DNA from: Thozetella sp. PMI_491
Taxonomy: Eukaryota; Ascomycota; Sordariomycetes; Chaetosphaeriales; Chaetosphaeriaceae
DNA: 64,000 nt
Reading direction: 5' to 3'
Assembly (NCBI GenBank): GCA_021432635.1
Contig: MU270126.1
Location: 62,001 to 126,000, forward strand
Shown here piece after piece: positions 26,795 to 34,699 of this stretch; within the stretch, counting starts at the first letter, position 1, and every line of letters starts with the position of its first letter. Made by a program: the position numbers and the translations under genes. The notes below the pieces were generated by a model. The model was not told the DNA's origin. It was given only the letters and a program-made list of their open reading frames with translations, and searched no databases.

Positions 26795-29263
26795 ATGGCC
26801 TCTGGAAACCCTTCCAACCCCGCAACATGGGACGAGTACGAAGGCTCCTCGCCGCGGAGGTCGGGCAGTGACGCCTCCATGGCCAATCGTAACGTCCAAT
26901 GGGACGAGGAGCCCGTCATCGACCGAACGCCCGACGAGCGTCTCGACGACGAAGAATGGCCGCGACTCAGGCGCAGGAGGCAAGTCAAGCGATGTGTATT
27001 TCCAGGGCGCTGCTCCGCCCAGTCTCCCCTCCCGCTCGCGCTGACAGGTGTGCCTTCCCCTCAGGTCCTCTCTCACCACCCGTCTCACGGCCCTCACCGA
27101 TGTGGGCGGCGTCAACAGCATCCGGTCCTTCACCCGCAGCTGGCAGCGAGCGGCAGGCTTCGCCGAGGTCATTCCCCAGCGCCCCTCCATCATCTTCGCC
27201 CCAGACCAGGTGCCCACCACGTTACATCCTCCCGAGGCGATCCAGTATGGCCGTAGCGACGTCGAGGCGGCCCCCAGCACCTCCCTCCTGCGCCAGCATC
27301 TCGAGGCCTCGAGGCTGAGCCAGGCGGGTGAGTCGGCCCTTCGCGACGACACCCAAGCTCCCCAGCCAGGGGCAAGCCACCACCCCCATTCGCCGACCCG
27401 CCGTGCGAGCGGCGACTACCGGGAGCGCGAGGCCAAGGCCCTCGAGAACGAGCTGTCGCCGCTGTTCCGCGTTGGGAGCGCCGGTACGACCTCTGGGTCC
27501 ATCTTCGCCATCCCGCCGCACCTCGCGACACCGCCCATCATGGGGAGCTATGGCTCGCTGGCGAGCCGCGACTACGGTACCCTGCGGTCCGAGATGGGCG
27601 TCCCGCCGCCTTCCATGGAGGAGGCGGCGGTGCTATGGCGGCAAGAGCAAGAGGCAGCCGGCACGATCCCGGACATCGAGGTCGAGCCGATCCTGGTGCG
27701 CGAGGTCGAGCAGGACGGCAAGGTGGTGCTGATGGTGGAGGGCCAGTCGACACTCCCGCAAACCATTTTCAACTCGATCAACGTCCTGATCGGCGTCGGC
27801 CTGCTCAGCCTCCCCATGGGCATCAAGTATGCCGGCTGGCTGGTCGGCATGATTTCCTTGTTCTTGTGTGCCGCTGTAACTGCCTACACGGCCAAGCTGC
27901 TCGCACGGTGCATGGACCTGGACGCCAGCCTGACCACCTTCTCAGACGTTGCCTACATCTCGTTCGGCCGCAACGCCCGCGTGGCTACGAGCGTGCTCTT
28001 CACCCTGGAGCTGATGGCCGCTTGCGTGGCCCTCATAGTGCTGTTCGCCGATTCGCTCGACCTGATCCTCCCGGGCTTGTTGACCGTCACGCAGTGGAAA
28101 ATGGTCTGCTCTGCCATCATGGTGCCACTAAACTTCCTTCCACTACGGCTCCTCAGCTTCACTAGCATCATCGGTATCGTCTGCTGCTTCAGCAGTAAGC
28201 TCACCCCTGACTGTTCTCCCCTATCCATCGTACACAGATAGCTGATGTTCGGCGTCCGGCCTAGTTGTCACGATTCTGCTCATTGATGGATTCATCAAAC
28301 CCACCTCCCCAGGATCCCTCATCGAGCCGGCCCAGACATACCTTTTCCCTGCCAACTGGCTGACTTTGCCACTGTCCTTCGGACTTCTCATGTCCCCCTG
28401 GTAAGGCCCCCTAGTGAATCCGAGAGGTCGAGGATGATAGAGCTAATATTGGCACGCAGGGGAGGCCACAGCGTGTTTCCGAACGTAAGAAGCCGCCTGC
28501 TCAGACCAAGTCTGACCAGACAGATGCTAAATCATTTCGTAGATCTACCGAGACATGCGGCACCCCCACAAATATACCCGAGCCTTGAAAGTCACCTTTT
28601 CGTTCACGGTACGGCTGAACAGCGCTTCGCAGGCGTATGGGATATGTCGCTAACCCCTAGACAGTATCTCCTGGACACCGTGACGGCTGTTGCTGGCCTC
28701 CTCATGTTTGGCGACGAAGTCCGGGATGAGATCACCTCCAACATCCTGGAATCGACGGGCTACCCCCGGGCACTCACGGCCTTGATGTGCATTTTCATTG
28801 CCATCATCCCACTGACCAAGATCCCCCTAAACGCACGGCCCATCATCAGTACCGCGGAGGTCCTATTGGGGCTCCACTACCCGGTTGTCTCGGATGATGC
28901 CGCTGCTGTCCGACGGACGGCGTACTGGCGCGGGTCCCTGAGGATCCTAGTCCGCGTCTTGACTATCCTCAGCTTCCTCATCATCTCCATCCTCTTCCCC
29001 GCCTTCGACAGCATCATGGCGTTCATGGGAAGTGCGCTCTGCTATACGATTTGTGTGACGTGAGTACCTCTCCTGGACCATGGCATCTCGGGCACGTAAC
29101 ACTGACACACACCAGCCTACCGATATCGTTTTACTTGAAACTGTTCGGCGACGAGATTGCCCCGCGTGAGAAGTTTGGCCAGTATACGTTGTTGACATTG
29201 TCTATCATCATTTCTACGGTGGGTACGATATGGTCCTTCCTACCAAAGAGCCTTATAGTTTAG
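26795..29263 (+). CDS. avt1: Vacuolar amino-acid transporter, AVT1-type (AAAP family)
   Basis: Seven exons: 26795-26979, 27065-28194, 28265-28400, 28460-28484, 28543-28608, 28665-29059 and 29116-29263, encoding 694 residues. AAAP carriers such as yeast Avt1 move neutral amino acids across the vacuolar membrane using the proton gradient. The first ~310 residues are hydrophilic and cytosolic. The membrane part opens with STLPQTIFNSINVLIGVGLLSLP, the AAAP signature, and contains about eleven hydrophobic segments. Conserved stretches include PWGGHSVFPNIYRDMRHPHKY and KVTFSFTYLLD. All phases close. Exon 4 is only 25 nt. Intron 1 uses a GC donor (AG|GCAAGT) with a good branch site (GCTGAC) and CAG acceptor; the other donors are GT. 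The start has a purine at -3 (GCGATGG). Confidence 0.93.
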
Positions 29264-30799: not shown

Positions 30800-32648
30800 C
30801 TTGGCGCGCAATATAACTAGATTCACCACGTCCAGTTGCTAAGACCCTGGAGTCATCAATACGGCTTGCACCATGTCGTTGTATAGTCGCCCCGGACGAA
30901 GCGGTGGAAAAAGGGGTTGAGCCGGGCGCGATCCTCTAGAGTCCCCAGCACGAGTCCTTGCTCTCTCCCTTGGCCCCTTGGCATCCGACCTATTTGGGAT
31001 CGGACTCTCTCTACAAACATATGTTGCCAGAGACTCACCCCAAGTCTATGGGCGACACCCAGCAACGCCCGGCGTACGCACCGATCTTGCCAAGAATTCC
31101 GCTCTTGGACGGTCTTGGTATGAGCGGACTAAAGGAGGCGCAACGCCGGGCCAAGGAATCGGGAGTCTTGGTACTCCAAGCCAAGACGGAAAGCCAAGAT
31201 ACTGAGCCACTCGTCAACGAGGGGGTGACCGGTAAATGGGAAACGCTCAGAGATTCGAGAAGGTTTGAGTCGAGGCTACAGGAATTCACCGGGGCTTAGA
31301 CGTCGACCCCTTCCGCGCAGTCCGTGGCGATGATGACGAGCAGCCTATCATCGTCCACTTCGGTGAATCTTCACGCCTGGGCTCGCCTGCTGAACCATGG
31401 GTGCACACCTGTCCCCAAGAGCTTGGTTGCAGGACGGCCTCGGTGTACTGGCCGGTTCTGGCTGCTCCCCGACTCAAGGGATGGCCGCCTTCGGGCATGC
31501 CATGACTCCAGCCATAGGGAGAGAAGATTAACCAAGTCACATGGTTCGCCTCCGACAATTCGCTCGACATTGCCGGGCGAATGAACAAAGCGCTTGGAGC
31601 TTGGCTTGGGCCGTCATTCTTCGCCGCTGCACTATACTCCTCCGTAGTAAATCACGCCAGAAAGGGGAGAAGGGGGGGGAGGGAGGATGGGGGCTGTGTT
31701 CAGCCCGAGATGATGGTATAGACTATTGACAACAGCAGGCAGGAAGGGGGTTGCCAAGCTGCTTGGCGGCGGAAGATGAGGTCTTGGCTTGGGCGGAAAG
31801 CTTGGCCATCCCTCTTGGATAATAACCGCGGGCCCCGGGCCCTCATCCACGAACGGAGGAGCTGGTTAGAGACTGCGGCAAATTTGCATCGGATGGCATT
31901 ACTTTTTCTTCGACCCAAGACTGGTGTTCTTGCTGCGATATCGCTTAGCAAAGAAAAAAAAAAAAAAAAGGGAAAAAAAAGCACAGGCAATTGCGACCAG
32001 GCACCAGGGGACAGGCGCGGAGGGCCAGCATGAAGTCCTCGCTACGGAAGGCGAGAAGAGCCGACTGCGCATGCGCGTCAGATGGGTGGGCAAAGGCCGA
32101 CCCAGAGGGATGACAGTGAGGAGGAGTGGGCAACTCCTCGCAATGCCAAGGCTTGGCATTGTCTTGGCATTGTCTTGGCATTCATGTACCCAAGTTAGAA
32201 GGCCCCTCTCCTCCAACGCGGGGGCTGCCGCGGAAACCGAGTCGCTACCATCAAGCGCTACTTTGGTCGGACCACGGTGTTTGACGGTGGCCAATGGCGA
32301 CGACCTTCGCCCGAGCCCCCGACTGCCAAGAGACTTTGCCAAGACTTTCCGCCAGCTATCGCCAAGAGCGCGAGGCCCGTAATAAAGACATAATGGCTCG
32401 CTGCCTCCCTGAGGCACGCAGTCCTTTTCCTCTTCATACTTTGTGCCAAACGTTCTTTCGTACTTCGATCCGTTGGCTCCCCAAACACTCATCTTTCGAT
32501 CCTTGGGAGCGCAGAAAGACCCATCCAGGTCGAACCCGGCGCCTCAGACATCTTTAGTGGGTCTGATTAAACCCTTCTGGGAAATTTGCCAGCCAGGTCA
32601 CGTGATCCACGCTGCTGCCTTTCTTACCCCCCTCATTTTCCTGCCAAG
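30800..32648. promoter_or_regulatory. Array of PacC consensus sites (GCCARG) upstream of pacC
   Basis: Hexamers GCCAAG or CTTGGC begin at 30800, 30969, 30977, 31089, 31150, 31180, 31193, 31600, 31753, 31762, 31783, 31801, 32145, 32152, 32163, 32174, 32325, 32338, 32361 and 32643. One GCCAGG begins at 32592. That is 21 sites in 1.85 kb, where about two are expected by chance. GCCARG is the established target of PacC/Rim101. The next gene is pacC itself, so direct autoregulation is the natural reading, which is inference. Confidence 0.75.
32142..32182. repeat. Inverted pair plus 11-bp tandem copies of the PacC core site
   Basis: A 9-bp inverted repeat AATGCCAAG/CTTGGCATT (arms 32142-32150 and 32152-32160) has a one-base spacer. 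The right arm begins three tandem copies of an 11-bp unit CTTGGCATTGT (32152, 32163, 32174; the last is partial). The unit is close to one helical turn, so sites face the same side of DNA. Confidence 0.9.
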
Positions 32649-32716
32649 ACAGCCTCTTCCCCTTGTCGCTTAAACTCCGCAAAAATATCGGCTGCCGGCA
32701 AAACAGAGCACCGAGA

Positions 32717-32730
32717 CCCCCCCCCCCCCC
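32717..32730 (+). repeat. Poly-C tract in the pacC leader
   Basis: Fourteen C in a row ending 29 bases before the pacC ATG. It would lie in the 5' untranslated region. Exact length is uncertain. Confidence 0.8.
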
Positions 32731-32759
32731 ACCAAACCAAGCAAAGACAGACCTGCAAC

Positions 32760-34699
32760 ATGTCTGCCCCTCAGGACTCTGCAGTGCCGTCTTCGGGTTC
32801 GAGCTCCAACTCGAACACCAACACGCCCGCCCCTTCGACCGCCGCCACTACCACCAGTGCATCCTCGGCGGGCGGTGCTGATGAGAGCCTCTCGTGCCGG
32901 TGGAAGGACTGCACTGAGCACTTCGAGTCGGCCGAGCGCCTCTATGTGGGTGTTTCCGTTCTCCCATTTTTCCTCCCAAACATGCGGGATGCTGACTCGC
33001 GCTTCTAGGACCACATCTGCGACAAGCATGTCGGGCGCAAGAGCACCAACAACCTCAACCTGACTTGCATGTGGAACTCATGCCGGACCACCACGGTCAA
33101 GCGCGACCACATCACGTCGCACATCCGCGTCCACGTGCCGCTCAAGCCGCACAAGTGTGACTTCTGCGGCAAGTCGTTCAAGCGGCCTCAGGATCTCAAG
33201 AAGCATGTCAAGACCCATGCCGATGACTCCATCCTCACCAACCGTGGGGGACCTGACCCCAACGGCGCCGGACTGAACTCGGCTTTCCGGGCCCACGCCC
33301 CCAAAGGTACGTTGCCTCCTCCCTCCACTTGCCCCGGATCTCAGCCGGTCCGAGTGCGGCGCCACGCGGCTATCGCCCATTTCTTGCTGCCTTTTTTTTG
33401 CTATTTTTTCTATTATTTTTCCTTATTCTAATAACTTTTCCAGCTCCGGCAAGCTACTATGATCACAATGGTCACATGCGTACTAACTCGGCCGCCTACG
33501 GTCAGCCACCGCAGAATGGCGGAAGCTACTATAGCCACCACCCGGCTCAGCCGGCCTACCAGCCCATGTACCACTATCAGCAGCAGCCTATGACCGGTGG
33601 ACGTGGTGACTTCCTCGCCCACCAAGCTGCCAGCTCGTTCGAGAGCCGGGGCAAGCGTCCCCTGGACGAGCCGCTGAACGACTTCTTTGGCGCCCTCAAG
33701 CGCCGCCAGATCGATACCTCCAACTACTCCTCGGTTGGCCGCTCCCTCATGCCCATCCACTCTACATCCCTCGGCATCCAGGCGGCGGGCGGCGGCATGG
33801 CCACCGAGTACATGGCTCCCGCCCACCCCCCGGCTCTGAGCGTCGGTGGTGGCGCCTCCCACGGCCACGGCCCCTTGACCCAGCACTACTACCTGCCTCC
33901 CATGCCCAACCTGCGCACCAAGGAGGACCTCCGCGACATTGACCACATCTTGCAGCAAATGCAGGCTACCGTCTACGAGAACACAGGCTCGCCTGAAAGC
34001 ACCCACTACTCTGGGGTAGACATGCGCCACCAGTCGCCTGCTTATGCGACCCGGCCCAGCATTGATCCCTATGCTGTCTCGGCCGCTCAGGTTGCGTCGC
34101 CTCTGACCTCGGTGTCGTCGACCCACTCCACCGGCACTCCAGCTGTCACCCCGCCGTCTAGCACCATGTCGTACACCTCGGGACACTCGCCAAGCGCCTC
34201 CTCTGCCGGCATGTCGCCTTCCTCACGCCACAGCTCCACCTCGGTCGCTTACCCGAACCTGCCGGCTGTCGCCCACCCGCAGTCCAACCTCTCGGGCCTC
34301 GGCACCAGCTTCACCAGCACTGAGCGGCGCCTCTCTGGCGGTGTTCTGCAGAGCGCAAACGCGTCGGCTCGCGCCCGCGAGGCCTCGGAGGGCGCCACGA
34401 CCCCCAGGGCAAGCGACTCTCTCTCGGCCGTCAGCTCCCCGTCTGGCGAGTCCGACAACAGTGAGCCGCCGGAGACCTATGACAACTGGATCCACAACAT
34501 GCGCCTGCTGGAGACCCTGCGCAAGGCGATTCGCGAGCGCCTGGAGAACCACGATTATGACGACGCTGAGGCGGACGAGAGCCGCATCGACCCCATGGTG
34601 CTCGACTCCGACAACACTCGTGCGCCGCCCCAGCAGTCGGCCTCCGAGGCCCCCCGGGCAGAGAGGCCTCTCTACCCGGCCCTGCCCAATTGGTCGTGA
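32760..34699 (+). CDS. pacC: pH-response transcription factor PacC/Rim101
   Basis: Three exons, 32760-32945, 33009-33306 and 33444-34699, encoding 579 residues. PacC is the zinc-finger regulator activated by proteolysis at alkaline pH; it induces alkaline genes and represses acidic ones through GCCARG sites. Three C2H2 fingers are intact: C46-C51-H64-H69, C82-C87-H100-H104 and C112-C115-H128-H132. The finger core ([35 protein letters not shown]) matches the family almost residue for residue. The first intron falls between L-Y and D-H of finger 1 and the second follows the fingers. A Tyr/His/Gln-rich segment follows, then [32 protein letters not shown], typical of PacC, a Ser/Thr/Pro-rich region and a conserved C-terminal part ([22 protein letters not shown]). 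The upstream array of PacC sites suggests autoregulation. Confidence 0.97.

Follow-up and report, generated by a model that had tools for sequence, protein, structure and literature searches.

The DNA upstream of the pacC gene of Thozetella sp. PMI_491 raises the question of why one short word, the GCCAAG form of the PacC target GCCARG, is repeated there so many times, and whether the repetition reflects control of the gene by its own product. Within the window, that is the whole 64-kb stretch of DNA that was analysed, a pattern search of 30800..32648 finds 21 GCCARG (20 GCCAAG, counting both strands, and one GCCAGG at 32592), with start positions spanning 30800-32643 and a last base at 32648. 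These counts are identical to those of the preliminary description, which also placed the cluster correctly, upstream of pacC. The DNA there is intergenic and 5' of an intact pacC-like gene. The cluster is a confirmed and strong sequence feature. Judged from the sequence and from what is reported of other fungi, the stretch is probably the regulatory region of pacC, carrying a homotypic cluster of PacC sites by which PacC would directly regulate its own gene.

The gene was modelled by eye as three exons that splice to a product of 579 residues without an internal stop, and three C2H2 fingers were recognised in the product, again by eye only. Its exon 2 matches zf-C2H2 (PF00096, E 4.6e-7, 30.4 bits against a cut-off of 25.2), and a PDB search gave, among the best 60 of 159 matches, other zinc-finger proteins. 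The name PacC rests on signature sequence, the finger resemblance being strong, and is presumably correct for this gene. Two YPxL motifs, YPNL at 431 and YPAL at 572, lie in the C-terminal half and we take these to be the PalA-binding motifs of PacC. YPx(L/I) is named as a PacC motif in the excerpted text of a study of Aspergillus nidulans (PMC4832277). pacC is single-copy, and a second pacC in the genome was rejected because the other nine genome matches to the finger exon are all at most 43% identical, over zinc fingers. The closest coding sequence on the upstream side belongs to a gene resembling amino-acid transporters (Aa_trans, E 1.4e-16, ORF 28434-29063), the last exon of which apparently reaches about 29372 as judged by eye. 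About 3.4 kb separates this gene from pacC, with a single further GCCAAG (29412) in the upstream 1.4 kb of that interval. A hidden gene in the interval was also rejected: of the six ORFs that lie wholly inside it and reach 100 aa, four were tested against Pfam and gave no credible match (best E 0.055, under the cut-off), and no Rfam family reached its gathering score there.

Table 1. Coordinates, in the window, of the pacC gene and of the GCCARG sites upstream of it.
Feature	Position	Strand	Details
Homotypic GCCAAG cluster	30800..32648	both	20 GCCAAG + 1 GCCAGG; -1960 to -117 from the pacC ATG
Sub-cluster 1	30969..30982	-	two CTTGGC, 8 bases apart
Sub-cluster 2	31089..31198	+	four GCCAAG: 31089, 31150, 31180, 31193
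Lone site outside sub-cluster 3	31600	-	
Sub-cluster 3	31753..31806	both	one GCCAAG + three CTTGGC: 31753, 31762, 31783, 31801
Sub-cluster 4 (core)	32141..32182	both	sites 32145, 32152, 32163, 32174
Sub-cluster 5	32325..32366	+	three GCCAAG: 32325, 32338, 32361
Promoter-proximal sites	32592..32648	+	GCCAGG 32592; GCCAAG 32643 (-117)
pacC (PacC/Rim101-type three-finger C2H2 transcription factor)	32760..34699	+	proposed exons 32760-32945, 33009-33306, 33444-34699; 579 aa

How far the cluster departs from chance depends on the background chosen. The assembly (72,315,471 bases or 72.3 Mb, in 157 contigs and partly N) contains 68,499 GCCAAG, so that 1.75 would be expected per 1,849 bases against the 20 found upstream of pacC. 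The preliminary figure of roughly two expected hence holds for GCCAAG and falls short for GCCARG, for which the rest of the window (98 in 62,151 bases) predicts about three. The Poisson probability of exactly 20 GCCAAG in 1,849 bases, 5e-15, is a naive figure since close groups of the word are over-represented in this genome. The reversed word is an unfair control, being about 2.6 times rarer (26,788 against 68,499), and therefore the expected count was taken from the real GCCAAG rate. The whole window is at background for GCCARG (119 against 111.6, sd 10.0, in 100 shuffles), while within 30800..32648 GCCAAG is the top-ranking hexamer and 20 of the window's 68 copies fall there. Neither of two Markov models reached the 21 GCCARG found: a 4th-order model built from the rest of the window gave a mean of 3.4 and a largest value of 13 in 2,000 simulations, and a 2nd-order model built from the stretch itself a mean of 6.3 and a largest value of 16.

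Comparison with other parts of the genome shows the scale at which the cluster stands out. The background sample was made up of twenty 10-kb stretches taken from fixed positions along contigs C1-C5, C7 and C9. About 182.5 kb of it is readable, one stretch (L023, C1:1600001-1610000) being 10,000 N and another (L021, C1:600001-610000) containing 7,056 N, with a few shorter N runs besides. It holds 194 GCCAAG and its best 1,849-base stretch has 7. Loci chosen for close pairs or triples of GCCAAG, together with two competitor places, reach at most 10 per 1,849 bases (L007, and the mutually overlapping L041-L043), and so the density upstream of pacC, at 20, is above that of every other sequence compared at the 1.85-kb scale. 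The "extreme clustering" of the preliminary description stands at the scale of 1-2 kb only, as at 100, 250 and 500 bases other arrays match or exceed pacC: best counts of GCCAAG in 100 bases are 7 at L051, 6 at each of L041 and L050 and 4 at pacC, in 250 bases 8 at L051 against 7 at pacC, and in 500 bases 8 at both.

Close groups of GCCAAG are in fact a feature of the genome at large, and any argument from a single compact array is therefore weakened. Taking a triple as three GCCAAG with gaps of 0-30 bases, random placement would give about 14.8 of each kind (computed for the same-strand kind, the same formula serving for the mixed ones), yet there are 204 same-strand triples genome-wide, and the complete lists for two mixed kinds have 40 (forward-reverse-reverse) and 42 (reverse-forward-forward) entries. 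These two mixed kinds, to which the mixed-triple comparison was confined, make 82 matches at 70 places, and among those 70 places the pacC upstream region alone has two non-overlapping mixed triples within 2 kb. The nearest competitors, on contigs C27 and C50, each have triples with one site in common. In the triple and density tests run, multiple sub-clusters extending across nearly 2 kb are thus seen upstream of pacC only.

The groups found elsewhere are of several sorts. Among the same-strand triples listed, the first 100 of the 204, a number resemble, by eye, coding repeats of GCC-AAG (Ala-Lys), and some groups sit in DNA without a long reading frame. At L041 (C1:2500059-2500108, 1501-1550 of the locus) five GCCAAG lie on one strand at an exact 11-base pitch where the longest stop-free stretch is 118 codons; this array is compact, unlike the spread cluster at pacC. 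L051 (C19:907401-909300) has eight same-strand GCCAAG in about 170 bases (916-1083), seven of them within 100. Look-alike triples at C1:1741589, C5:97530 and C14:424003 share the form GCCAAG-5-GCCAAG-4-GCCAAG with similar gap letters, another at C8:1203864 has gaps of 3 and 3, and the four are possibly copies of one small element. At C12:43261-43376 a 17-base tandem unit, GCCAAGAGAAGCGAGAT, recurs several times and the array ends with an inverted site.

Returning to pacC, the sites show bunching, with 30 bases or fewer in 11 of the 19 gaps against 4.9 under uniform placement (P = 0.0004), and neighbour distances inside the sub-clusters, which mostly have 2-4 sites each, are 7-61 bases. Reading by eye, the core consists of a 21-base perfect palindrome, CAATGCCAAGGCTTGGCATTG, at 32141-32161 with its two sites one base apart, and then two more TCTTGGCATT units at an 11-base pitch. 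Because an 11-base unit has been duplicated locally in tandem in part of the core, the copies there do not count as independent, and one could suppose that the entire cluster was built up neutrally, through local duplication and slippage in intergenic DNA free of constraint, and that few of its sites are functional. The tandem copies in the core speak for this, as do the compact tandem arrays of GCCAAG elsewhere in the genome and one of the six inverted pairs found in a repeat search (at least 14 bases), a 15-base repeat at 87% joining the core (32161-32175) to the site at 32338 (32331-32345). However, outside the core the four bases either side vary between sites, the two direct-repeat families that the same search found in the interval contain no sites, and neutral duplication would not favour one hexamer in both orientations over 1.85 kb. 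We consider this origin for the cluster unlikely.

The choice of word was looked at against a background of 242,649 bases, made up of the window outside 30800-34699 and the 20 fixed stretches, coding DNA included. GCCAAG is 10.9-fold above this background in 30800..32648 and GCCAGG is at 0.67-fold. Eighteen single-base neighbours of GCCAAG were examined in all, and 12 of the 15 changed at positions 2-6 are at 0.9-fold or lower, with GCTAAG (2 against 0.53), GCAAAG (3 against 1.23) and GCGAAG (2 against 1.38) slightly raised on small counts. With the enrichment confined to one word and most near-words not raised, a composition effect is not the cause. The first-base variants are all raised (CCCAAG 7 against 1.30, ACCAAG 4 against 1.36, TCCAAG 4 against 1.36), as weak or decayed sites would be. 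A flank preference exists and is weak: T precedes GCCAAG at 10 of 20 cluster sites against 57 of 194 in the sample (Fisher P 0.076), A follows at 9 of 20 against 42 of 194 (P 0.028) and both occur at 5 of 20 against 13 of 194 (P 0.017), all uncorrected, and for the 48 GCCAAG in the rest of the window the numbers are 5, 9 and 2.

GCCAGG fits GCCARG, the consensus for A. nidulans PacC, and its lack of enrichment might suggest that another factor reading GCCAAG, and not PacC, uses the cluster. The genes beside other GCCAAG groups give no sign of a role in pH response either (four such loci supplied five ORFs, one with a HET-domain match and four without a Pfam match). Set against this, the Neurospora crassa PAC-3 motif BGCCVAGV, as given in the excerpted report (PMC4996508), admits GCCAAG and excludes GCCAGG, in line with the pattern of words upstream of pacC, although the other BGCCVAGV forms are not raised there (GCCCAG 1, GCCGAG 0). 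Further, the part drawn upon of a study of the N. crassa gsn promoter reports binding of PACC to a GCCAAG/CTTGGC site there, in vitro (gel shift) as well as in vivo (ChIP-PCR) (PMC3432076). In Fusarium graminearum comparisons, again cited from an excerpt, a conserved promoter motif is GCCARG and is likened to the PacC site (PMC2853525). It would also be a coincidence that the densest 1.85-kb spread among the sequences compared should lie at pacC, and a factor other than PacC seems to us quite improbable.

The preliminary description had offered a second function, a decoy array that soaks up PacC and buffers its free level. High site density and a spread of sites to almost 2 kb from the ATG, beyond what a core promoter needs, are what a decoy could show, but the proposal does not survive the numbers: 20 of 68,499 GCCAAG genome-wide is 0.03%, too few to deplete a factor that has access to the remaining copies, unless the majority of these are closed, and a decoy requires neither a position upstream of pacC nor bunching. 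Titration was therefore rejected and is, we feel, very improbable. Carry-over by a transposable element, or a low-complexity effect, is scarcely credible, no point in its favour having been found in what is a large (72 Mb) and partly N genome, with the GC content of 30800..32648 (57%) inside the range of its surroundings, the near-words changed at positions 2-6 mostly not raised, and a transposon or repeat origin rejected for want of a second copy, the only genome match of the stretch being itself in a search that skips simple repeats and very common words.

Direct regulation of pacC by PacC is then the reading to be set beside what is described for other fungi, from which the binding of PacC to GCCAAG and to its own promoter is taken. 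The statement in the preliminary description that pacC autoregulation occurs elsewhere is well founded, there being own-promoter binding in N. crassa (PMC4996508) and genetic autoregulation in A. nidulans (PMC4832277), as far as the excerpts of these papers go. The N. crassa pac-3 promoter is reported to have "many PAC-3 motifs", PAC-3 occupied the tested part of it by ChIP-PCR at alkaline pH only, and the authors suggest activation of pac-3 at alkaline pH (PMC4996508, in the text excerpted). The two promoters are alike in having many PacC-type words before the PacC gene itself and differ in that occupancy was demonstrated by ChIP-PCR there and is predicted from the sites here. In A. nidulans pacC is said to be repressed by full-length PacC72 with PacX, alkaline expression coming about by derepression, the evidence for autoregulation being genetic (PMC4832277, from the portion cited), and a later paper, likewise excerpted, adds SltA as a positive input (PMC11011638). 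Expression of pacC there depends on PacC, as is predicted here from sites; the difference is that repression there uses PacC72 and PacX, and form and co-factor are not readable from the sequence here. Nor are the strength of any feedback or even its sign, and the "unusually strong feedback circuit" proposed for this locus was not borne out. In the excerpts seen of two further papers, the Aspergillus niger pacC promoter carries a PacC motif (PMC2718513), and YlRim101 of Yarrowia lipolytica is described as stimulating transcription of its own gene, with GCCARG present 3 to 7 times upstream of the Rim101 targets (PMC8265631). The open-licence literature, in the parts consulted, gave no numeric count of PacC sites at the pacC gene of another species.

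The cluster can also be placed in a wider class. Homotypic binding-site clusters are best known from animal enhancers, and the pacC cluster resembles them in repeating a single site many times along 1-2 kb of regulatory DNA, and differs in lying upstream of a fungal regulator gene. As a kind of promoter it is already known, from pac-3 of N. crassa; what is new is its extent and its modular layout, five or six sub-clusters over 1.85 kb.

If PacC does act directly on its own promoter via many sites, their arrangement in sub-clusters could make occupancy follow the level of nuclear PacC steeply, provided that binding is cooperative, and transcription of pacC would then switch when alkaline pH leads to processing or import of PacC. 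For the direction of such a switch we slightly favour the suggestion made for N. crassa, activation under alkaline conditions, over the A. nidulans pattern of repression at acid pH. The case for self-regulation draws locally on the sites, their one-word specificity, their location and an intact single-copy pacC, all observed; a group of GCCAAG is by itself not proof of PacC, given that close groups are commoner than random genome-wide. ENA-type ATPase genes are classical PacC targets, and three over the cut-off were located, on contigs C10, C58 and C70. No GCCAAG triple was found upstream of the one on C10 in the two mixed lists or among the same-strand matches listed, and none near those on C58 and C70 in the two mixed lists. 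Dense clusters are accordingly not a general mark of PacC targets in this genome as far as these lists go, a mild point against treating density as the sign of a PacC target and one to be weighed against the self-regulatory reading.

A bolder proposal, and one we regard as doubtful, is that some twenty identical PacC words in a modular arrangement might form a cooperative, possibly two-state pacC switch with a memory of past ambient pH. The sub-clusters (an inverted pair one base apart, direct repeats at an 11-base pitch, all-forward triples) might then be read differently by full-length and processed PacC to yield both acid repression and alkaline activation. In print, pacC autoregulation has one sign in A. 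nidulans and the other in N. crassa. With about twenty repeats of one word, laid out in several distinct ways, this promoter is well suited as a natural test of how the forms of PacC read their own gene. It also provides a worked case of a fungal homotypic cluster which, among the sequences compared, is outstanding in its genome at the scale of 1-2 kb.
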